Made by a program: the position numbers and the translations under genes. A DNA stretch of 40,967 nt from Deltaproteobacteria bacterium (GTDB lineage: Bacteria; Desulfobacterota; Binatia; UBA1149; JAJCZL01): NCBI GenBank assembly GCA_029262415.1, contig JAJCZL010000048.1:1-40967 (forward strand). The letters run 5' to 3'. The notes under the pieces are model-generated. The model had not been told where the DNA came from, did no database searches, and saw nothing but the letters and a program-made list of their open reading frames with translations. The number at the start of each line of letters is the position of its first letter. Positions within the stretch are counted from its first letter, which is position 1. This document shows, in pieces, positions 19,661 through 32,554 of the stretch.

Positions 19661-21523
19661 ATGGGCAGTGGATCGTCGCGCGGATGGACCGCCGAGGTGT
19701 CCGACGCTCTTGGGCAGGTAAGAGTGGCGGATAACGTCGAACAACTCCGACTCAGAATGGAACAACTGATAACTCGGCTGGCCGATGCCGAGCGGGCGGT
19801 GGGGCTCGACCCTGAACAGCCCCTTGCGGCCGGTGCCGGCCGTAAGGCGGATCCCGATTCGGTGTTGGCAGCTTCTGCTGCTGTGCCTGGCGGCGCGGGG
19901 CGCACCGAGATCGAGCAGATCAGCAGGGAGGTTGAGCACGCCGACCGGATGCTGGCTGAGTTAAGTGAACTCCTCGAGGCCCAGTCTCGCCGTATCGAGC
20001 AGGTCGAATCCGGTCGCCGAGATACGCCGGATGCGAATGTCCGCGGCGGCGCCGAGGATCGTAGCGCGCAAACCGAAGACCGTGGTTCTGGTTACGACGC
20101 GGCTCGCTTCGCGTCGGCCGCTGCACCTCAGCCACAGCCCAATCCTCATAAGAGCGGCGATATCATTGATAAATACCAACGCCGGCTCCTCGACCTCGAG
20201 GCCAAGCTTTGCGCAGTGCTCGACGACCGACATGTTCGCGAGGAGGTCGCAGGCCTGACCGGTGCGGTTGAGGCCGCTGTTTCGGAGCGGCAAGAGGCCG
20301 GGCAGGGGGTAGCTGCAACGCAGGAAGAAGTCGTTGCGCTGCAAGACTTCCTTTCGATCATGCTCGATAGAATCGACGAGGGCTTCGGCGGACTCCGTTC
20401 CCGCATCGATCACCTAACAGGCACCTTTGACGCGCACCTTCGCGGGCTCACCGATCGTGTCGGCGAGATGCGTACTCTTCTCGCTGAAAAAGACAGCCGC
20501 ATCGCCGAGCTTGAGGAGCGCTTGATGCTATTGGTCGAGGGCGACGCCGCTCCGGCACACGACGGCTCCGACGTGCCAGGGCGAGGCTCGCACGGCGAAG
20601 ACCCACGCACTGGCGGCAGCGACCGCCGAGGTGACGGTGGCGGCAGCGAGGGTGAGCTTGAGAAATGGCCGCGTCGTATGGGTCCGCCCGCGTTTGAGGC
20701 GGTCGTCCACGGGCAAGACCGACAAGGGCTAATCCCGCCTCTGCTGAAGACAGGACCGGCGTTCGCGCCGATCGAGGCCCGCGATGCGGTTAGCGAGACC
20801 AGGTTGCAATCGGCCCCCGAGTCGTCAATGCCGGCATTCGAACTGGTCTCACCGGAAGCGGAGTTCACGGCTGCCGCCGCGCTGCCCCCCGCGGTTGCAG
20901 CGCAGACGTTGCCGCTGGCGCACGGAGTTGACAGCGACAAGCCTGGTCAGGTAAGTACCGTGATGACACGGTCGACTTCGCCTTCAGCGCGCGATTTGTT
21001 ATCGGGACGCGGACGGATAGTCGACCGGGGCGACGTTGAGATAGAGCCCGGCGCTACTGGTGCGCGCTCGGCGCAGACAGCCGATGTTGGGCATTTGGTG
21101 CCCGGCAAGGCGCGACCTACGGTGATGGTCGTTGACGATGCCACGGATGCGCGGACGATTCTGTCCCTGTACCTGTCGCGTACAGGCTTTCAGGTGGTCA
21201 CCGCAGCCAGTGCAGAGGACTGCCTCGCTAAGCTTCGCCATCATGCGGTAGACGCCATCGTGCTGGATGCTTCGCTGCCCGGAGCCGACGGCGGGCACGT
21301 TTGCCGGGTGCTGCGTAGTGAGTCGGACTTTGAATCAAAGCGGCGGACGCCGGTGATTATTTACACGGGCTATCCCGATGAATACACGCGGACGTTGGCG
21401 AACCAATGGAAAGCGGACGACTACGTAGTCAAAGGCGGGGACATGCTCGCGTTGATGAGTTCTCTGTTACGCCACACATCGGGCCCAGCAGCGGTCGGTC
21501 TGGCAAAAGGCAACGGCGCGTGA
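19661..21523 (+). CDS. Coiled-coil protein with C-terminal response-regulator receiver domain
   Basis: A 620-residue protein of unusual build. The first 300 residues contain coiled-coil heptad stretches (about residues 22-45, 88-110 and 180-290) broken by polar linkers. Residues 300-485 are low in complexity and probably disordered. The last 125 residues are a full receiver domain with D492-D493, phospho-acceptor D536 in VLDASLPG, T569 and K591. There is no output domain after the receiver, so signal output would pass through the coiled coils, as in scaffold or polarity proteins. It ends in a four-base GTGA overlap with an exported protein gene. The start is uncertain: the ATG at 19661 has only a weak purine run, and a GTG at 19724 is possible. 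Confidence 0.75.
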   Translation: MGSGSSRGWTAEVSDALGQVRVADNVEQLRLRMEQLITRLADAERAVGLDPEQPLAAGAGRKADPDSVLAASAAVPGGAGRTEIEQISREVEHADRMLAELSELLEAQSRRIEQVESGRRDTPDANVRGGAEDRSAQTEDRGSGYDAARFASAAAPQPQPNPHKSGDIIDKYQRRLLDLEAKLCAVLDDRHVREEVAGLTGAVEAAVSERQEAGQGVAATQEEVVALQDFLSIMLDRIDEGFGGLRSRIDHLTGTFDAHLRGLTDRVGEMRTLLAEKDSRIAELEERLMLLVEGDAAPAHDGSDVPGRGSHGEDPRTGGSDRRGDGGGSEGELEKWPRRMGPPAFEAVVHGQDRQGLIPPLLKTGPAFAPIEARDAVSETRLQSAPESSMPAFELVSPEAEFTAAAALPPAVAAQTLPLAHGVDSDKPGQVSTVMTRSTSPSARDLLSGRGRIVDRGDVEIEPGATGARSAQTADVGHLVPGKARPTVMVVDDATDARTILSLYLSRTGFQVVTAASAEDCLAKLRHHAVDAIVLDASLPGADGGHVCRVLRSESDFESKRRTPVIIYTGYPDEYTRTLANQWKADDYVVKGGDMLALMSSLLRHTSGPAAVGLAKGNGA

Positions 21524-23191: not shown

Positions 23192-23389
23192 GTGAAGGAG
23201 AAGGACGCTGGGGCGCAGATCGCCGAAAATGTCGCGGCGACCCTACGCCACTTGCAGAGTATATGTGCTTTTTGCAGCGAACCCGAAATCGGGTGTGCGA
23301 TGATACAGACCTATCGCCGTACCCGCGGTCGTGGTCGGGCGTGCCGAATGCGGGAAACCAAAGTGGTAGACAAAGAGGCCTATGAATAA
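23192..23389 (+). CDS. Possible small Cys-containing protein upstream of the response regulator
   Basis: A 65-residue frame from a GTG with a charged helical N-terminus, a C-x-x-C pair followed by a third cysteine (ICAFCSEPEIGC), and a basic Arg-rich stretch with a fourth. Its stop lies inside the response regulator gene, an eight-base overlap (ATGAATAA), which suggests translational coupling. Against it, there is no ribosome binding site before the GTG. No family is recognised. A zinc-binding regulatory peptide is conceivable but unproved. Confidence 0.4.
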   Translation: MKEKDAGAQIAENVAATLRHLQSICAFCSEPEIGCAMIQTYRRTRGRGRACRMRETKVVDKEAYE

Positions 23390-23825
23390 CCTGGAGCTTC
23401 AGAATCGCATCTTACTGGTCGACGATGAACCCAATATCCGCGAGACTGTTGCGTTTATCCTGGAGGCCGAAGGCTACGACGTCGATACGGCGGTGGATGG
23501 CGTCGATGGTCTCGAGAAAGTCCGTCAGGTGAAGCCGAAGCTGGTTCTGCTCGACGTCATGATGCCACGCATGGATGGCTATGAGGTCTGTCAGGCAATC
23601 CGGGCCGATCCGTCTCTGGCCGGTGTTTTCATCCTGATCCTGACCGCAAAGGGCCAGAAGTCCGACGAGTTGAAGGCTTTAGAGGTTGGTGCCGATCTGT
23701 ACATGTCCAAGCCTTTCGACGATGAAATTGTCGTTCAGGTTATCCAGGATGTGTTCGAAGGCCGCTTGGTCTCGCAGGTCGGTGCGATCGGCGAGACGCA
23801 TGTCGTTCATTACCAGCGCGCGTAA
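23382..23825 (+). CDS. Single-domain response regulator (CheY-like)
   Basis: A 147-residue protein consisting of one receiver domain and a 25-residue tail. Key residues are all present: acidic D14 and D15, phospho-acceptor D58 in LLDVMMP, T88 and K110 in SKPFD. It has no DNA-binding or enzymatic output domain, so it would act by protein contact or as a phosphorelay step. No histidine kinase is in the window, which makes it an orphan. The receiver-bearing coiled-coil protein lies 1.9 kb upstream, so both could answer to the same kinase. A strong hairpin spans its stop codon. Confidence 0.9.
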   Translation: MNNLELQNRILLVDDEPNIRETVAFILEAEGYDVDTAVDGVDGLEKVRQVKPKLVLLDVMMPRMDGYEVCQAIRADPSLAGVFILILTAKGQKSDELKALEVGADLYMSKPFDDEIVVQVIQDVFEGRLVSQVGAIGETHVVHYQRA

Positions 23826-23877: not shown

Positions 23878-24294
23878 CTAGCGGCTGCCGTGAGAGATCC
23901 CTAGTACGTCGCCTTCGTTGATCAGTCCCACGAATGCGATCGCCGTATCGAGGTCGCCATCGATCACGATTCTTTCGCTTTTCACCGCTAACTCCCCGTC
24001 GAAAGTACCGTCGGCAATCCTCAAGAAATCTTCGACACTGAGCGTGGCTGTAATGTCAGCGTCGATGTCGCTCTCGCGGGTGACGCCGTCGGGAGCCACC
24101 TTGACCAAGAAGCTGCCTCCGCCGTCGCCGTCTAAAACGAAGTTACAGACAACGCTGCGCTCGGCACCGGTAGGACCGGTGCGAGCGAAGGCCTCGAAAA
24201 TCTGTTCGACCCGCTGGGCGGGCGTCAGGGCCGGCGCGCTGACGGGAGCCGCGACAATTACCTCTTTGGGTGCCTCTGTCTCTTCTTGTTCCAT
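23878..24294 (-). CDS. SCP2 sterol-binding domain family protein
   Basis: A 138-residue protein. After about 25 residues rich in Glu, Ala and Pro, the rest follows the SCP2 pattern: an early helix (QRVEQIFEAFAR), a beta-sheet (CNFVLDGDGGGSFLVKVAPDG), the segment DADITATLSVEDFLRIADGTFDGE, and a C-terminal helix (LDTAIAFVGLI). SCP2 domains bind sterols, fatty acyl-CoA or other lipids in the cytoplasm. The assignment is by motif order. It lies alone on the minus strand, convergent with the response regulator and divergent from the exported Ntf2-like gene. Confidence 0.75.
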   Translation of the reverse strand: MEQEETEAPKEVIVAAPVSAPALTPAQRVEQIFEAFARTGPTGAERSVVCNFVLDGDGGGSFLVKVAPDGVTRESDIDADITATLSVEDFLRIADGTFDGELAVKSERIVIDGDLDTAIAFVGLINEGDVLGISHGSR

Positions 24295-24408: not shown

Positions 24409-24855
24409 ATGAAACATGTGCTGCTCGCTGCCGTCATTTCGCTGTTTCTCATGCCGTTTTCAGCCGCACAAGCCACGGCGGAGAGGTCTCCCGAGGACAC
24501 CGTCACCGGGTTCCTAAAAGCCATGCAGGACCATGAGTTCCAAAAGGCCTACGATTACGTCTCCACGACCCTACGCGGTGGGAAAGGCCGCGAGGAGTGG
24601 GCTAAAGAGCAGCAGTATATCGTGCAAGTGGGCGAGGTGAAGATCTTCGGCTACAAGGTTTACCCCGCGACAGTTGACGGCGAGAAGGCCAAAGTGCCCA
24701 ACGTTCTGAAGTCGCAGGACAAGTTCTTGAACCAGCTGGGACTTGACGAACACGAGGTCTACGAACTGCTCAAAGAGGAGGGGCAATGGCGCATCGACCA
24801 GCAAATGCTCGTCCAGACCGACGAAGAGAAATCGATGTACTTCCCTGAGCAGTAG
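24409..24855 (+). CDS. Exported protein, DUF4878/Ntf2-like
   Basis: A 148-residue protein with a signal peptide (residues 1-24, ending Ala-Gln-Ala-Thr-Ala) and a domain that begins SPEDTVTGFLKAMQDHEFQKAYDYVS and ends with a strand after EEGQWRID. That is the outline of DUF4878/SnoaL-type Ntf2-like folds, small cone-shaped barrels that bind ligands or serve as periplasmic accessory domains. The exact family is inferred from the pattern. The frame opens earlier at 24286, but the ATG at 24409 starts the signal peptide directly. The promoter of the next transcription unit follows about 85 bases after its stop. Confidence 0.7.
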   Translation: MKHVLLAAVISLFLMPFSAAQATAERSPEDTVTGFLKAMQDHEFQKAYDYVSTTLRGGKGREEWAKEQQYIVQVGEVKIFGYKVYPATVDGEKAKVPNVLKSQDKFLNQLGLDEHEVYELLKEEGQWRIDQQMLVQTDEEKSMYFPEQ

Positions 24856-25033: not shown

Positions 25034-26170
25034 ATGAAGATCGGGAATGCTGCCTACTCAAGGCCGGTCCTCGCCTGTGTCGCGGTTGCTAGCGCATTTG
25101 TTGCGGGTTGCCACGGCGCGACCGAGTGGGAACCCCTGACCGAACAAAAGATCTACGTTGCAGACAAGTTCTACGATGTGTCACCTCGCAGCGAGAAAGA
25201 GGCCATCGTCCTCGGCTACGCGGGTAAGATTTTACGCACCCAAGATTCGGGCTTCACTTGGGAGCTAATCGACAGCGGGACCGATCACGCGCTCTTCAGC
25301 ATAGACTTTGCGGACGACAATCCTCAAGTCGGTTGGATTACCGGTCAGGAAGGCCTGGCGCTGAAGACCACCGACGGCGGCGCCAGCTGGAAACCTCAGC
25401 AGACCGGCGCCTGGATGGGCGAGGACTGTCGCGACGACGGGTACCGCGGCCGTAACGAAGAGAAGTGCCACCAGGCCTACCTATTCGCGGTTTCGGTCGT
25501 TGATGAGACCACCGTCATGGCGATTGGCGACCGCTCGACAATGGTCATCTCGACCGATGGCGGCCAAAGCTGGGAAGCGACGACGGTCAAATCCGCCTCG
25601 CAGATCGAGAACGCCGACGAAGAGTTCGCGATCGTGTTCGAGGATCCGGTCCTTTACGATCTCAAGTTTTTCGATGCGAAGACCGGTTTCATAGTTGGCG
25701 AGTTCGGAAAGATCTTCAAGACCACCGACGGCGGCAAAAGCTGGGCTGAGAAGCAGGGCTCGCTGATGGGTGGCGACATCTTCGACATCCTCGATCTGCC
25801 GACGTTCTTCGACATCGACTTCGACGGTGACACGGGGGTTGTGGCGGGCCTCGACGGCCGCATCGCGGTCTCGAGCGACGGCGGTGAGACTTGGAAGTTC
25901 TCGCCCAATAACGTCGATCAGTACATCGATCCGATGTACTCGGCCGAAATTCAGCCGAACGGGATCCGCTGGGTGGTTGGATCTTCGGGGCAAGTGGTCA
26001 CCGCGGGACCGACAGGCGCGTTTGCGCGCGGTTCGCTCGGATCTGCGATCAGCAGCTGGCTTCGCCGGATTGTCTTCCTCGATGACAAGCACGGATGGGT
26101 GGTCGGCGGTTTTGGCTTGATTATGAACACCGACGACGGTGGTAAGACTTGGTACCGCCGATTCGGCTAG
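25034..26170 (+). CDS. Ycf48/HCF136-like BNR beta-propeller lipoprotein
   Basis: A 378-residue protein with a lipoprotein signal (hydrophobic stretch ending VAGC, lipidated C26) and repeated Asp-box motifs (TQDSGFTWE, TTDGGASWK, STDGGQSWE, TTDGGKSWA, SSDGGETWK, TDDGGKTWY), six or seven blades of a Ycf48-like propeller. In chloroplasts and cyanobacteria Ycf48 helps assemble photosystem II; non-photosynthetic homologues are often beside RND exporters and probably act as periplasmic partners. Here the exporter gene starts 16 bases downstream, supporting that role. The ATG is preceded by a strong GAAGGAGGA that may be masked by a leader hairpin. Confidence 0.88.
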   Translation: MKIGNAAYSRPVLACVAVASAFVAGCHGATEWEPLTEQKIYVADKFYDVSPRSEKEAIVLGYAGKILRTQDSGFTWELIDSGTDHALFSIDFADDNPQVGWITGQEGLALKTTDGGASWKPQQTGAWMGEDCRDDGYRGRNEEKCHQAYLFAVSVVDETTVMAIGDRSTMVISTDGGQSWEATTVKSASQIENADEEFAIVFEDPVLYDLKFFDAKTGFIVGEFGKIFKTTDGGKSWAEKQGSLMGGDIFDILDLPTFFDIDFDGDTGVVAGLDGRIAVSSDGGETWKFSPNNVDQYIDPMYSAEIQPNGIRWVVGSSGQVVTAGPTGAFARGSLGSAISSWLRRIVFLDDKHGWVVGGFGLIMNTDDGGKTWYRRFG

Positions 26171-26186
26171 GGAGTTACAAGGACCA

Positions 26187-28850
26187 ATGAGCAGAGCAAC
26201 CAAACCGGCCCTTTACCTCCTCGGCGACAGGCTGATCCAGTACCGCGTACCGGTCACCATCATTACGGCGATCTTTACAGCATTTTTCGGCTACCACATG
26301 TTGCAGCTGGAGATGATCACCAGTTTCGGGGATTTGCTGCCGCAGAGCCACGAATTCATCAAGATTCACAACAAGTATTCCAAGGATTTCGGCGGCGCTA
26401 ACAACATCATGATGATGGTTGAGGTCGACGATGGCGACATCTTCACCGTAGAGCGGCTTGGTCAGATTTATTTGATGACCGAAGAAATCGATAAGGTCTA
26501 CGGCGTAAACCACAACCAGATCGACTCGATCGGTCACCGTACCACGCGTCACCTTGCCGTTGCGGCAGGTGGGACGCTGCGGTCGGAGCCGGTGATGATC
26601 GGTATGCCGAGAACTCCGGACGAAGCGCAAGAGGTCCAGCGCATCGTTCACAACTCGGAGAATATCTACGGCATTCTCGTCTCGCTTGACGATAAAGCCG
26701 CGATCATCAGGGCGAACTTTATCGAGGGGCGTCTGGATTACAGACTGATATTCGACCAGATGAACGAACGCGTCATCAAGCCCTTCAAAGAGGGGTGGAT
26801 TGGCGCCGAACTCGATGACGTCGACCCGGATCGCAACGAGGTCTACGGGGTCGAGAAAGGCGTCGGGGTACTCGTCAAGCGCTTGTTCCCGGGTAGCGTG
26901 GCTGCTGCGGCCGGGCTTCAATCCGAGGACGTTATCGTCGCTATTGGTGAACGGACGATTTCCCACCGTTGGGAGATCTCCGACGAGGTTGCCAAAGCAG
27001 AGGGTGGCGCCCTCGAGATCAAGTACCTGCGTGATAAGAAGCCGGGCAGCGTGACCTTGACCGGTGGCGGTTCCGACATACAGATTTGGGCTGCCGGCGA
27101 ACCGCGCTTGTACGGCTGGGTCTATCACTTCTCGGGCGAGATCTTCTGGATCTTCCTTGCCGTGACTTTGTTCATGTGGATTCTGCTCTACCTGTACTTT
27201 CACGATTGGCGTGGCGCATTGCGCCCGACAATCACGGGAGTGCTCTCGGCGATCTGGGGCCTTGGGTTCATTCACCTGATCGGCTTTGCGTTGGATCCTC
27301 TGGCGTTGGTCATCCCGTTCTTTATTACTGCTCGCGCGGTCTCGCACTCGGTCCAGATGCACGACCGCTATTACGAAGAGTACTTCAAAAACGACTTCAA
27401 CAAGCACGAAGCGATCGTCGCCTCGTTTGCCGAGATGTTCGTACCGACGCTGTCGGGGATCATCACCGACGCGCTCGGCGTGCTCGTGATCATCCTGGTG
27501 CCGATCCTACTTCTCCAGAAGCTCGCTGTTACCGCGTCGTTCTGGATTATGTGCATCACGATCTCCGAGCTACTGCTCAACCCGATCGTCTACGACATGA
27601 TCGATCCTCCCGATGTAGAGGTCATTCATAAACGCCGCGACGGGATCTTCTACCGCACCGCGGCTGCGTTCGCCTCGGCTGCACTCAGTTCGAAGGGGCG
27701 GGTTCTAACCATCGTTTTCTGGTCGTTGTTGGTTGTGGTTTGCTCCACGCAGTGGAGCAAGTTGACGATCGGCGATCCGACCGCGGCGTCTCCGCTTCTC
27801 GACATCGATTCGCAGTACAACGCCTCTCATACGCGTATTCAAGGCAAATTCGGCGGCGTTGAACCGCTGATCGTTGTCGCCGAGGGCTACGACAAGAACG
27901 CGATGAAAGACCCGAAATCTCTGCAGACGATGGAGAAGTTCCAACGCTTCCTCGAGCGCGATTCGGGCGTCGGTTACAGTTTTTCGCTCGCCGACATTAT
28001 CCGCGCAGTAAACAGCGTGTTCCACGAACTGGAACCGAAGTGGGGAGTGATCCCGAACAACTGGGTGGACATTGGCGGGCTGTTCTTCATCTTCTTCTCC
28101 GGGTCGCCTCCGACCGAGACTGCGAAGTACGTATCCACCGATTACGCAACCGCGCACGTAACGTTCTTCTGTCGTGACCACAAAGGTGACAACATCGAAC
28201 GGATTATCGCGCGTAGCCGTACGTTCATCGACGAGAATCCGATGGAACAGGCCGACTTCAAGCTTGCGGGCGGCTTGATCGGTGTGCTCGCGGCTGCAAA
28301 CGAAGAGCTGCTCAAGAACGACGTTCTCGTTAATATGCTTGGATTCGGAACGATCTACATCGTGCTGATGTTTACCTACCGCTCGTTTGTCGCGGGTATC
28401 ATCATGCTTATGCCGCTGATTGTCTCGAACATTACGATTAACGCGTACATGGGCTGGCAGAACATGGGCATCAACGTGAACACGCTGCCGGTCATCACTG
28501 TCGGGGTCGGGTTCGGGATCGATTACGGCTTGTATTTGGTCAGTCGTACGATCGAGGTGTATTTCGAGCTTGAACAAGAGTACCGCGGCAAGCCGAACGA
28601 CGATCGGGTACAGATGGCGGTACACACCGCGATCACGACGGCCGGTAAGGCGACTACGTTCGTTTCAACGACGTTGATTATGTCGACCCTGTTCTGGACG
28701 GTATCCAAGATTCGCTTCGACGCCGAAATGGGCCTCTTGCTGGCGATCTGGATGACGGTAAGTTGGGCGGCTTCGCTGACCCTATTGCCGGTCGTCTTGA
28801 TGCTCGTCAAGCCGAGATTCATTCAGCGCCGTCCGGCAATTGATGCCTAA
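26187..28850 (+). CDS. RND/MMPL-superfamily exporter with PDZ domain in first periplasmic loop
   Basis: An 887-residue inner-membrane exporter with the two-fold RND build: helix 1 near residues 20-40, a large periplasmic loop, a helix bundle about 317-480, a second loop, and a second bundle to the end. The second half keeps the proton-relay type motif GVGFGIDYGLYLVSR; the first half has ITARAVSHSVQMHDRYYEE at the equivalent place. Unusually, residues about 215-295 form a PDZ domain (GVGVLVKRLFPGSVAAAAGL, then SEDVIVAIGERTISHRWEI). The substrate is unknown; related exporters move lipids or hydrophobic compounds. I chose the ATG at 26187, with ACAAGGA upstream, over a longer frame from 26139. 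It is co-transcribed with the Ycf48-like lipoprotein. Confidence 0.88.
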   Translation: MSRATKPALYLLGDRLIQYRVPVTIITAIFTAFFGYHMLQLEMITSFGDLLPQSHEFIKIHNKYSKDFGGANNIMMMVEVDDGDIFTVERLGQIYLMTEEIDKVYGVNHNQIDSIGHRTTRHLAVAAGGTLRSEPVMIGMPRTPDEAQEVQRIVHNSENIYGILVSLDDKAAIIRANFIEGRLDYRLIFDQMNERVIKPFKEGWIGAELDDVDPDRNEVYGVEKGVGVLVKRLFPGSVAAAAGLQSEDVIVAIGERTISHRWEISDEVAKAEGGALEIKYLRDKKPGSVTLTGGGSDIQIWAAGEPRLYGWVYHFSGEIFWIFLAVTLFMWILLYLYFHDWRGALRPTITGVLSAIWGLGFIHLIGFALDPLALVIPFFITARAVSHSVQMHDRYYEEYFKNDFNKHEAIVASFAEMFVPTLSGIITDALGVLVIILVPILLLQKLAVTASFWIMCITISELLLNPIVYDMIDPPDVEVIHKRRDGIFYRTAAAFASAALSSKGRVLTIVFWSLLVVVCSTQWSKLTIGDPTAASPLLDIDSQYNASHTRIQGKFGGVEPLIVVAEGYDKNAMKDPKSLQTMEKFQRFLERDSGVGYSFSLADIIRAVNSVFHELEPKWGVIPNNWVDIGGLFFIFFSGSPPTETAKYVSTDYATAHVTFFCRDHKGDNIERIIARSRTFIDENPMEQADFKLAGGLIGVLAAANEELLKNDVLVNMLGFGTIYIVLMFTYRSFVAGIIMLMPLIVSNITINAYMGWQNMGINVNTLPVITVGVGFGIDYGLYLVSRTIEVYFELEQEYRGKPNDDRVQMAVHTAITTAGKATTFVSTTLIMSTLFWTVSKIRFDAEMGLLLAIWMTVSWAASLTLLPVVLMLVKPRFIQRRPAIDA

Positions 28851-28927: not shown

Positions 28928-29890
28928 TTGATCAAGGCCGAACACCTTACGAAAGATTACGGACTCAACCGTGCTGTCGACGACGTATCTTTCCAGATCG
29001 GCAAGGGCGAGATCGTAGGACTGCTCGGACCCAACGGCTCGGGCAAAAGCACGATCATGCGCATGCTGACGGGGTTCTTCACCCCTACGGAGGGCACATG
29101 CAGCATCGCGGGCCGCGATATTCGAACCGATTCACTAGCGGCGCGAACCCACGTCGGATACCTCCCCGAGCGCGTTGCGCTTTACCCCGACATGAGCGTG
29201 CGTGGCTATCTCTCGTTTGTGGCTAGGGTGCGTGAGGTCGACGGACGGGTGGCGTCCTATGTCGACGATGCATTGCAGCGCTGCGGGCTGACCGACGTCC
29301 ACCGAAAACGGATCGGCAAGCTTTCGCGCGGTTACCGACAGCGCGTGGGCATCGCCCAGGCGATCGTGCACCGGCCCGACGTACTGATTCTGGACGAGCC
29401 GACCGTCGGCTTGGACCCGCGCCAGATCGTTGAGATTCGCTCTTTGATCCGCCACCTCGCGGGCGGCGTAACGATACTACTCTCTACCCACATCCTCCCC
29501 GAGGTAAGCCTGCTATGCCGACGTGTTCTCATTCTGGACCGCGGCAAGCTGATTGCGGAGGACACGGCCGAAGGCCTGGCCGCCAAGACTGCCGGTCGCG
29601 GAGAGGTTACCTTAGAACTCGAGGCGCCCGAGGATGTTGCCGTCCTGGCGATTTTAGCGTGCAAGGGCGTGCGCGGCGCCGAGGTTGACGGACGCGTTGA
29701 TGGACGCCTACGGATCACCGTTCGCACCGATCCGGCCACCGATGCTAAACCCGAGTTGGTCCGTGCCGCCGTCGAGAAAGGCTGGCCGGTCCACGAGGTC
29801 AGCCCGAAATTGTTGACTCTCGAAGATCTCTTCGTTGAGATCCTGGCGGACTCCGGCTCCGAACTCCCCTCGGCTGAGGAGCGCGGGTGA
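28928..29890 (+). CDS. ABC transporter ATP-binding protein (GldA-like)
   Basis: A 320-residue ABC ATPase: Walker A GPNGSGKST (residues 34-42), Q-loop region, signature LSRGYRQRVG near residue 132, Walker B VLILDEPTVGLD, and switch histidine in LSTHIL. The C-terminal 100 residues form an extra domain common in the ABC-2/Gld-type subfamily. It would drive the permease encoded next. The start is TTG with GGAGAG eight bases upstream; the ribosome binding site touches the T-run of the preceding terminator. Its stop overlaps the permease start (TGATG). The system resembles GldA-GldF-GldG of gliding bacteria, but such sets are widespread and the substrate is unknown. Confidence 0.9.
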   Translation: MIKAEHLTKDYGLNRAVDDVSFQIGKGEIVGLLGPNGSGKSTIMRMLTGFFTPTEGTCSIAGRDIRTDSLAARTHVGYLPERVALYPDMSVRGYLSFVARVREVDGRVASYVDDALQRCGLTDVHRKRIGKLSRGYRQRVGIAQAIVHRPDVLILDEPTVGLDPRQIVEIRSLIRHLAGGVTILLSTHILPEVSLLCRRVLILDRGKLIAEDTAEGLAAKTAGRGEVTLELEAPEDVAVLAILACKGVRGAEVDGRVDGRLRITVRTDPATDAKPELVRAAVEKGWPVHEVSPKLLTLEDLFVEILADSGSELPSAEERG

Positions 29891-30636
29891 TGGTCAGCTT
29901 CAGGGCGCTACTGTTCAAGGAGTTAAGGGCGTTCTTCGGTTCGCCGCTCGTGTACTTTGTGGGCGCGGTGTTTTTGGTGTTGTCCGGATACTATTTCTAC
30001 ACCGACCTAAGCGCCTTCATCACCTTCGGCTTCGGCGAGAGCATCCTCGAGCACCTTTGGCAGCGCTTGTACAAAGACGTCGTTCGGCTGGTGATCACGG
30101 TTGTCCCGCTGGTCACCATGCGGGTCTACGCCGAAGAGAAAGCGCTCGGCACCATCGAGCTTCTCTACACTGCACCGCTGCGCGATTCTGAGATCTTGGC
30201 GGCGAAGTTCGTGGCGTGTATGGCCGTGTTCGTGGTGATCATTGGGACGACCGTTACCTACCCGGTGATGCTGTATGCGATCCAGCCTTTCGACGTCAGC
30301 CAACTGCTTTCGATCTACCTCGGCCTTTTTCTGCTGGTTGCTATGCTGGTGTCGATCGGGGTCTTTCTATCATCGCTGACCGAAACCCAGCTGATCGCTG
30401 CGATGTTTACTTACGGCGTGATTCTCCTGCTTTGGAATCTCTCATGGAACGAGGCCGCGATTCCCACCGACTGGCTCGGCGCGGTCTCGCAGCTGTGTGC
30501 GTTCGACCACTTTGAGCCCTTCGCGCGTGGGGTGATCGACCTAAAGGACATCATGTACTTCGTTTGCACCACGCTGCTGATGTGGCACCTGACGATGCTG
30601 TCGATGGAAGCGCGCCAGTGGAGGGGACGGCGATGA
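29890..30636 (+). CDS. ABC-2 type permease (GldF-like)
   Basis: A 248-residue membrane protein with six hydrophobic helices. The first is preceded by KELRAFFGSPLVYFVGAVF, and the conserved ABC-2 segment RVYAEEKALGTIELLYTAPLRDSEILAAKF lies after helix two. It forms the membrane channel with the ATPase upstream. I chose the ATG at 29890 (TGATG overlap with the ATPase stop); a GTG one codon earlier is equally possible. It overlaps the next gene by four bases (ATGA). The partner genes and order match the Gld-type set. Confidence 0.88.
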   Translation: MVSFRALLFKELRAFFGSPLVYFVGAVFLVLSGYYFYTDLSAFITFGFGESILEHLWQRLYKDVVRLVITVVPLVTMRVYAEEKALGTIELLYTAPLRDSEILAAKFVACMAVFVVIIGTTVTYPVMLYAIQPFDVSQLLSIYLGLFLLVAMLVSIGVFLSSLTETQLIAAMFTYGVILLLWNLSWNEAAIPTDWLGAVSQLCAFDHFEPFARGVIDLKDIMYFVCTTLLMWHLTMLSMEARQWRGRR

Positions 30637-32015
30637 TTTCGACCTCCTCGCGTCGTACCTTCCAAGCTATAGCCTCCGGATTCGGGATGTTCGCCATGCT
30701 GGCGAGCCTGACCGCGCTCACCTACGTGCACGGGTTTCGTGCCGACTTCAGTACCGGCACGCGCTTTACGCTCTCGGATCACGCGCGCCAGGTTTTGCGC
30801 GACATCGCCGAGCCTATCCGCTTGACCGCGTTCATCCGCACCGAAGACGGCCGCAACCCGGTAATCAAAGACCTGCTTTGGCAGGCGCGTAACCAGAGCG
30901 ACAAGCTCAGCTACGAAATTGTAGACGTCAATAAGAACCCGGCACGGGCAACGCGGGTGGGAGTTACCGCCTACGGTGCGGTCGTCGTCGAGACGGCTAC
31001 TAGACGGCGCGACTTTACCAACCCTACTGAGACGCAGCTGATCTCGGCAATCCTCAATGTGACGCGTCCGCCCAAGCGGATCGGCGTGATCACCGGCCAT
31101 GGCGAGTGTGCCCTCGGCGACGTAAACCGCAGAACCGGATGCTCACAGCTGCGTACGGCCGTGTCGCAGGAGTCGTACAGGATCGATGAGTTGTCGCTGG
31201 CGACCTCGGATATTATCGCCGATGAAATCGACGTCGTACTTATTAACGGGCCGAAAAGCGACTTTCTTGATCCTGAACTGAAGGCCTTGCGTTCCTACCT
31301 CGACGCCGGCGGTAAGCTGGTGGTGCTCTTGGATCCATATGCGGCGTCGCGTTTGACCGCGCTGTTGCTCAAGTACGGCGTGGTCATGGGCGAGGACGTG
31401 GTCCTCGATCCGCAGAACCGCCTTGCCGACGGTGAGGCTATCTCGGCGGTACTCCCCGACGTGAACCGCTCCCACCTCGTCGCCGCCACGCTCAAGTCTC
31501 CACCAATGTTCTCCGGTATGCGTAGCGTCGCCGGTCGCGGTGTCGGCGAGGTAGCGAAACGCGTCGTCGTTGACTTGGTCCGTAGCGGTCCGCGCAGTTG
31601 GGCCGGCCACGACCCGGCGATTCTTGATGGCGCAGCACCGAAGTTCGTCGCGGGCCGCGACCTCAACGGACCATTCAGTGTAGCGCTCGAGGTTAGCCAG
31701 CCGGCCAATGATGGAGCCGCAGCTGTGCGTGGTACGACCACGCGTATCGTTGCGGTTGGCGACGCCGATTTCGCATCCAACCGATTTTTTGACTACCTCG
31801 GGAACAAAGACCTGTTGCTCAATACGATCAACTGGCTGGTGCGTGACGAACGCTTGATCGGCAATCGGCCCGAGGCGCAGCCGGGTGGCAGCAAGGTGCT
31901 CTTCATCAGCCAAGCCCAGGTGGTGGGTTTATTTTGGTGGTGCGTTCTCATCATCCCTGCCATGTATCTGGCGGTCGGCATCGCGGTACTTGCGTGGAGG
32001 CGCGTAGGCCCGTGA
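30633..32015 (+). CDS. GldG-like ABC auxiliary protein
   Basis: A 460-residue protein with one N-terminal helix (residues about 10-33), a large extracytoplasmic domain of the GldG/ABC_transp_aux type (TLSDHARQVLRDIAEPIRLTAF, VVVETATRRRDF, ITGHGE, DVVLINGPK, VVLLDPYA, VAVGDADFASNRFFDYLGN), and a C-terminal helix (about residues 430-455) ending in basic residues. In Gld-type systems it pairs with the permease outside the cytoplasm. It overlaps the permease gene by four bases and the DUF4340 gene by four bases (GTGA), so the four proteins are made together. Confidence 0.85.
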   Translation: MISTSSRRTFQAIASGFGMFAMLASLTALTYVHGFRADFSTGTRFTLSDHARQVLRDIAEPIRLTAFIRTEDGRNPVIKDLLWQARNQSDKLSYEIVDVNKNPARATRVGVTAYGAVVVETATRRRDFTNPTETQLISAILNVTRPPKRIGVITGHGECALGDVNRRTGCSQLRTAVSQESYRIDELSLATSDIIADEIDVVLINGPKSDFLDPELKALRSYLDAGGKLVVLLDPYAASRLTALLLKYGVVMGEDVVLDPQNRLADGEAISAVLPDVNRSHLVAATLKSPPMFSGMRSVAGRGVGEVAKRVVVDLVRSGPRSWAGHDPAILDGAAPKFVAGRDLNGPFSVALEVSQPANDGAAAVRGTTTRIVAVGDADFASNRFFDYLGNKDLLLNTINWLVRDERLIGNRPEAQPGGSKVLFISQAQVVGLFWWCVLIIPAMYLAVGIAVLAWRRVGP

Positions 32016-32554
32016 GCTGGAAACGAATCGCGGTGACTTATGCCGTCGCACTATCGATTGCAGGCTACCTCTACGTGCAAACCAGCGGCCGTGACGCCTC
32101 CGTCGAACCAGCAGTCACGACTCTCGCCCCATTGCTGCAGATCGTCCCTGGATTGATCGACACCATGACCATCAAGGGAGAGGTCGGCAGGGTGTTGCTG
32201 GAAAGGCGTGAGGGTCGCTGGCGCGTAGCCGAGCCCCAGGGCGCGGCAGTGACCAGCGATCTGATCGATGCGCTGCTCGAGACGCTGTCGCGGATTCCAC
32301 CCATCGAGGCGGTAGCCGCCGACGACGCCTCGGACGCCGAGTTCGGGCTCGGCGAGCCTTCTGTTGTGATCACCATGATGGCCGCCTCCGATCCGGTTGC
32401 GAGTATCCACCTCGGTGACCGCAGCCCTACGCGGACCGCCTTGTACGCCCGCGTTGATGGCGATCCTGCGGTCTACCTTTTGGGCCTGAATGCGGGCTAT
32501 TATGCCGATCTGATCCTCCAGGAGTTAGCAAAGGGGTCGGCTGAGGCGAATTAG
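32012..32554 (+). CDS. DUF4340-family membrane-anchored protein
   Basis: A 180-residue protein with a short N-terminal helix (AVTYAVALSIAGYLYV) and an extracytoplasmic part with the DUF4340 pattern: EVGRVLLERREGRWRVAEP, then SDLIDALLETLSRIPPIEAV, the FGLGEPSVVITM strand and GDRSPTRTALYARVDGDPAVYLL. It is shorter than many DUF4340 proteins, which may carry a second domain. DUF4340 genes commonly follow GldG-like genes. The GTG start overlaps the preceding stop by four bases. The dehydrogenase gene follows after 26 bases, so the transcript may continue into metabolic genes. Confidence 0.82.
   Translation: MSWKRIAVTYAVALSIAGYLYVQTSGRDASVEPAVTTLAPLLQIVPGLIDTMTIKGEVGRVLLERREGRWRVAEPQGAAVTSDLIDALLETLSRIPPIEAVAADDASDAEFGLGEPSVVITMMAASDPVASIHLGDRSPTRTALYARVDGDPAVYLLGLNAGYYADLILQELAKGSAEAN

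Follow-up and report, generated by a model that had tools for sequence, protein, structure and literature searches.

A PDZ domain in the first periplasmic loop of an HAE3-like RND/MMPL exporter and its alternative architectures among relatives

Introduction

Can an interaction domain of the protease-regulator type be built into a porter loop of an RND exporter, and what would it do there? The question is raised by a gene on contig JAJCZL010000048.1 of a Deltaproteobacteria bacterium of the class Binatia (assembly GCA_029262415.1); the whole stretch of 40,967 nucleotides that was analysed is called the window below. The original prediction, made from the sequence, had placed a PDZ domain at about residues 215-295 of an RND/MMPL pump, and had suggested that the domain recruits the lipoprotein encoded just upstream. 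Transport in RND pumps is driven by the movement of porter subdomains, and these pumps are known to gain docking elements, such as the docking domains of AcrB and the coiled coils of MmpL proteins. To our knowledge, there is no PDZ domain in the lipid transporters MmpL3, MmpL4, MmpL5 or HpnN. No description of a PDZ domain in an RND or MMPL pump was found in the open-licence papers searched, and relative to that literature a protease-regulator-type interaction domain inside a porter loop is new.

Results

The open reading frame of the pump was confirmed from the ATG at 26187 to the stop at 28850 (26187..28850; this and all further features lie on the plus strand unless stated otherwise) and encodes 887 aa. 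The protein matched the MMPL profile PF03176 of Pfam (E 1e-19). A full-length model built from six alignment rows, which with a pLDDT of 50 is too low in confidence for the domain arrangement, contained 12 membrane helices and two large periplasmic loops and resembled MmpL4/5 and MmpL3 best (MmpL5, E 2.3e-16). Profile, topology and the fold of this low-confidence model all assign the protein to the RND superfamily and the MMPL family. The top NCBIfam model was HAE3 (TIGR00921, E 7e-34), and since the score of 116.9 bits is below the cut-off of 351.9, we call the pump HAE3-like without formal HAE3 membership. It is not assigned to the HpnN, MmpL3 or BstA families either, with scores of 18-36 bits far below the cut-offs of these NCBIfam models (752-1400). 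The porter domains of the two loops comprise residues 46-199 (26322..26783) and 525-681 (27759..28229), respectively. The pair Asp779-Tyr780 in TM10 (28521..28526), likely a proton relay, and Arg383 in TM4 were invariant in our alignment A1, and TM4 did not carry the Asp-Tyr pair known from MmpL pumps.

A PDZ domain of the HtrA type, residues 203-296 (26793..27074), lies between the last porter helix of loop 1 and the strand leading into TM2; this strand and TM2 (residues 298-338, 27078..27200) resume immediately behind it. The location between TM1 and TM2 had thus been foreseen rightly, with a span slightly narrower than the one found here. In the search of the loop against PDZ models, PF00595 matched just above its cut-off (23.5 against 23.2 bits), PDZ_2 remained 0.2 bits below its own (E 6e-6) and PDZ_6 gave E 4e-5, while the PDZ domains of close homologues were well above the Pfam cut-offs, including that of PDZ_2. 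The DegP/HtrA model of NCBIfam matched with E 1.3e-13 (best stretch residues 199-292), and DegQ was the match among PDB sequences (E 1.7e-8). An AlphaFold model of the isolated domain, built from five sequences, reached a pLDDT of 84-92 in the core (mean 78) and resembled the PDZ domains of DegQ, DegP, MucD and AlgW (Foldseek E 2e-7, TM about 0.75), with a VIA-align Z of about 14 against PDZ1 of DegP/DegQ. With both a PDZ match and a predicted PDZ fold present, profile and structure agree on a true HtrA-type PDZ domain inside loop 1, as originally proposed. Within it, GVGVLVKR (residues 225-232, 26859..26882) would comprise a putative carboxylate-loop-like motif, GVGV, and the next strand. The octamer was conserved only in the window's lineage and in the double-PDZ lineage described below. 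In the window's lineage the PDZ domain was the least conserved part of the protein: its identity was 58%, where most segments of the porter and membrane regions had about 80-85%.

An alignment of 42 relatives revealed four architectures, all with clean boundaries. A PDZ domain was present in loop 1 only in the window's lineage, f115 and f5; in both loops in five f2 genomes; in loop 2 only in f111-f113; and in neither loop in f8, f110, f6 and f7. In the PDZ-less proteins, which include close relatives of about 62-65% identity, a 4-residue turn replaces the domain. These close homologues were intact, so the PDZ domain appears dispensable for the core pump. The loop-2 inserts scored 30.8-34 bits against the Pfam PDZ_2 cut-off of 27, and profile comparison identified them as divergent homologues of the loop-1 domains (probability up to 96%). 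When the two halves of the pump were aligned, both insertion sites fell, within some residues, behind the last porter helix and ahead of the final strand that precedes TM2 or TM8, which indicates that they are equivalent positions of the internal repeat. The window pump has no insert at the loop-2 site, residues 686-692 (MEQADFK, 28242..28262). The binding loop also differed between the lineages: the GxG loop and its adjacent strand showed little or no variation in the window's and the double-PDZ lineages, and the GxGx-type carboxylate loop was shortened in f5 and f115 and replaced in the loop-2 domains. Classical binding of C-terminal peptides may therefore not be general among these PDZ domains. 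In the loop-2 domains of f111-f113 (L113-L119) a conserved WEKAGPSW-like segment replaces the PxSPAAxAGL turn that is usual for PDZ, and the loop-2 domain at L103 carries an extra insert of about 24 residues behind the GD..I strand.

Counted as contiguous matches, PDZ1 (the loop-1 domain) occurred in 23 of the 148 genomes of the class, five of them with PDZ2 (the loop-2 domain) as well, and PDZ2 alone in seven, so that at least 30 of the 148 bear a PDZ domain. A profile of the junction between PDZ and TM2 was fully covered in six of 395 genomes of the phylum among the matches listed, all six within the class; no PDZ-bearing MMPL protein outside the class was among them, and the partial matches that were checked were PDZ-less. 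The best plasmid-borne relative was 35% identical and, at 792 aa, shorter by one PDZ-sized length. In the genome G469, an in-frame TAG breaks the orthologue (L027 6001-8682; L087 1060-3741) into pieces of 98 and 771 aa, which reflects either a pseudogene or an assembly error.

The double-PDZ proteins are mosaics by the evidence of their sequences. Diagnostic sites in their membrane parts favoured f8/f11x over the window's lineage by 59:1, whereas those in the two porter loops favoured the window's lineage over f8/f11x by 14:1 (Fisher p 4e-13 for the contrast). In AU tests, porter columns rejected a grouping of f2 with f8/f11x (p 0.003), and membrane columns rejected a grouping of f2 with the window's lineage (p 4e-67). 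The distribution of PDZ1 required one change on the porter tree against five on the membrane tree; a single group of PDZ2-bearers, on the other hand, was compatible with membrane columns (p 0.40), while porter columns rejected it (p 2e-4). The porter loops and PDZ1 follow the window's lineage, and the membrane parts and PDZ2 another one. The simplest account is a single origin of each PDZ domain, after which PDZ1 was carried along by the porter module and PDZ2 by the membrane half that follows it. The PDZ1-bearers formed one group with moderate support (68/92), given which independent gains or losses of PDZ1 may also have occurred. From the whole-protein tree it had seemed that f8 and the loop-2-only lineages lost PDZ; this reading was discarded, because the separate trees displayed recombination and a single change of PDZ1.

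In the PDZ-bearing lineages the gene order around the pump is kept. It begins with a small secreted protein with a signal peptide (24409..24855), NTF2-like by inspection alone and with no Pfam match, followed by a Ycf48-like beta-propeller lipoprotein with the lipobox VAGC (25034..26170), which lies directly upstream of the pump as had been predicted. Downstream come an ABC transporter ATPase (28928..29890), a GldF-like ABC-2 permease (29887..30636), a GldG-like ABC_transp_aux protein (30564..32015, true start probably near 30630) and, as the final gene, a DUF4340 protein (31934..32554). The NTF2-like protein was found in 35 of the 148 class genomes, which comprise almost every genome of the PDZ-bearing groups together with f8 and G465. 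The MMPL gene is separated from the cluster in f8 and in three of the double-PDZ f2 genomes, where the NTF2-like gene, Ycf48 and the ABC module remain linked (L104-L108; L166-L170, L172). The Gld-type ABC module (28928-32554) is a conserved feature behind the PDZ-bearing pump, and its link to an RND pump merits study. Two response-regulator genes lie upstream of the cluster (19661-21523 and 23382-23825); of their products, the 147-aa receiver protein is conserved next to the cluster across the order. An SCP2 sterol-carrier-type protein is encoded on the opposite strand (23878-24294, minus strand) and is a conserved neighbour of the cluster both in the window's lineage and in f2.

Discussion

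We propose, with about even confidence, that the pump is a proton-driven HAE3/MMPL exporter of a lipid or other hydrophobic compound, onto which a PDZ domain has been grafted as an extra periplasmic docking subdomain. Proton drive would be expected of an RND exporter with an invariant Asp-Tyr pair in TM10. The substrate class is suggested by the family, by the precedent of AmeD discussed below and by the neighbouring SCP2 gene, which could point to a sterol or lipid. In the periplasm the pump would work with the Ycf48-like lipoprotein, and the NTF2-like protein and the Gld-type ABC module of the operon probably cooperate with it too. The HtrA-type domain would have been inserted in the window's lineage between the last porter helix of loop 1 and the strand into TM2, and from its fold and place we infer that it most likely docks a protein tail or an edge strand. 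As it stands on the moving porter subdomain, its partner would either be coupled to that movement or be held over the exit path. In relatives, the second, divergent PDZ domain would have been acquired at the matching position in loop 2, and the double-PDZ form would be a product of recombination of periplasmic and membrane parts.

Which partner might be docked is the point at which the original prediction fared less well. In our judgment, it is quite unlikely that the Ycf48-like lipoprotein is recruited by the PDZ domain with its C-terminus as the ligand. The gene does lie directly upstream of the pump in the window, in all 15 fetched loop-1-only loci and in all seven loop-2-only loci; in the Ycf48 tree f2 groups with the window's lineage (100), in agreement with the porter-loop tree; and in the PDZ-bearing lineages the C-terminus has a short, fixed length and a fairly apolar composition, ending in G or A. 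Yet Ycf48 genes are also directly upstream of PDZ-less MMPL genes, both in this class and in Pseudomonadota, and a published pair, AmeC-AmeD, includes a pump of 787 aa for which no PDZ domain was described (PMC6394551). The PDZ domain would thus be an addition to an older partnership. Moreover, the PDZ-less f8 has the same kind of Ycf48 C-terminus, with no PDZ-linked change across the PDZ-bearing lineages compared with it, which gives no sign of coevolution, and a terminal Gly or Ala is atypical of a PDZ ligand. A constant association of PDZ with adjacent Ycf48 genes stood for all fetched single-PDZ loci and failed for three of the five double-PDZ genomes, where Ycf48 is encoded elsewhere. Besides the Ycf48 C-terminus, that of the NTF2-like protein was rejected as ligand: its [YWF]FP motif is conserved, but the terminal residues are not, and in neither protein did the C-terminus track the presence of PDZ among the lineages compared. 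The concordance of the trees suggests that the lipoprotein belongs with the periplasmic side of the pump. Alternatively, Ycf48 and the porter loops may both simply follow the genome lineage, with the membrane body replaced; even so, the porter loops appear to have stayed with the resident Ycf48.

The strongest rival to docking is a purely structural or steric role, in which the PDZ domain acts as a lid, spacer or oligomer contact and binds no peptide. It ranks first because only the window's and the double-PDZ lineages have an intact peptide-binding loop, which is degenerate in f5, f115 and the loop-2 domains, and the low conservation of the whole domain in the window's lineage points the same way; we nevertheless hold this role to be unlikely, as these two lineages preserve precisely the GxG loop and the strand next to it. 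A sensor resembling DegS, which binds C-termini that envelope proteins expose under stress and gates the pump, would accord with the nearest PDZ relatives, DegQ, DegP, AlgW and DegS, but nearness to HtrA proteins is common among bacterial PDZ domains, no gene of the conserved operon was recognised as a stress-response gene, and the second PDZ domain in loop 2 would be left unexplained. We regard such a sensor as very improbable. As for an artefact, in which a chance match, a frameshift or a misassembly joined a protease PDZ to the pump gene, the draft state of the genome (83 contigs) is the only circumstance in its favour, and we give it almost no credence in view of the identical junction in 23 separate class genomes and a predicted fold that is PDZ at the Z given above.

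Docking by an inserted subdomain has a parallel in AcrB-type (HAE1) pumps, where the DN and DC docking subdomains are inserted at matching places of both periplasmic halves and dock partners. The extra subdomains of the window-type relatives likewise occupy matching places of both halves, and PDZ docking would be comparable in principle; the insertion in AcrB, as far as is generally known, occupies an earlier position in the porter domain and has a fold other than PDZ. The HtrA proteins DegQ, DegP, MucD and AlgW have the PDZ fold and sequence profile in common with the window domain, whereas the window protein has no protease domain and carries its PDZ in a membrane transporter loop. With MmpL3, MmpL4, MmpL5 and HpnN the pump shares the overall RND fold and the MMPL profile.

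The occurrence of relatives with a PDZ domain at the loop-1 site, the loop-2 site, both or neither points to an exchangeable docking module. We extend this, tentatively and with somewhat less than even confidence, to the reading that PDZ domains are interchangeable modules for partner binding, placed on one or both of the pseudo-symmetric halves, whose specificity is reshuffled by recombination between periplasmic module and membrane motor. Both porter loops were kept together while the membrane body changed, suggesting that the periplasmic part and the motor are separable. At about 60-80% identity, the four kinds of relatives constitute a natural experiment on the docking module of an HAE3-type pump, in a family with few characterised members.

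The closest studied system is AmeABCD of Castellaniella defragrans, in which the HAE3 RND pump AmeD is accompanied by the Ycf48/COG4447 protein AmeC and which raises tolerance to hydrophobic monoterpenes (PMC6394551). The window locus likewise combines an HAE3-type RND pump, with two periplasmic loops and 12 TM helices, with an adjacent Ycf48-like (COG4447) periplasmic protein, as in an AmeABCD-type cassette, and export of hydrophobic compounds is the likely task in both. It differs in the PDZ domain and greater length of its pump, and in its companions: the Ame cassette has DUF1302 and DUF1329 proteins, and the window operon has the NTF2-like protein and the Gld-type ABC module instead. No DUF1302 or DUF1329 match lies on the window's contig (C48); matches in the genome are on C8, C9, C18, C22, C37, C47 and C76. 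The genome, G000, has seven good DUF1329 matches on other contigs and more than 10 MMPL genes, and one of the latter (C37 57349-61631) adjoins DUF1302 and DUF1329 genes in an Ame-like cassette.
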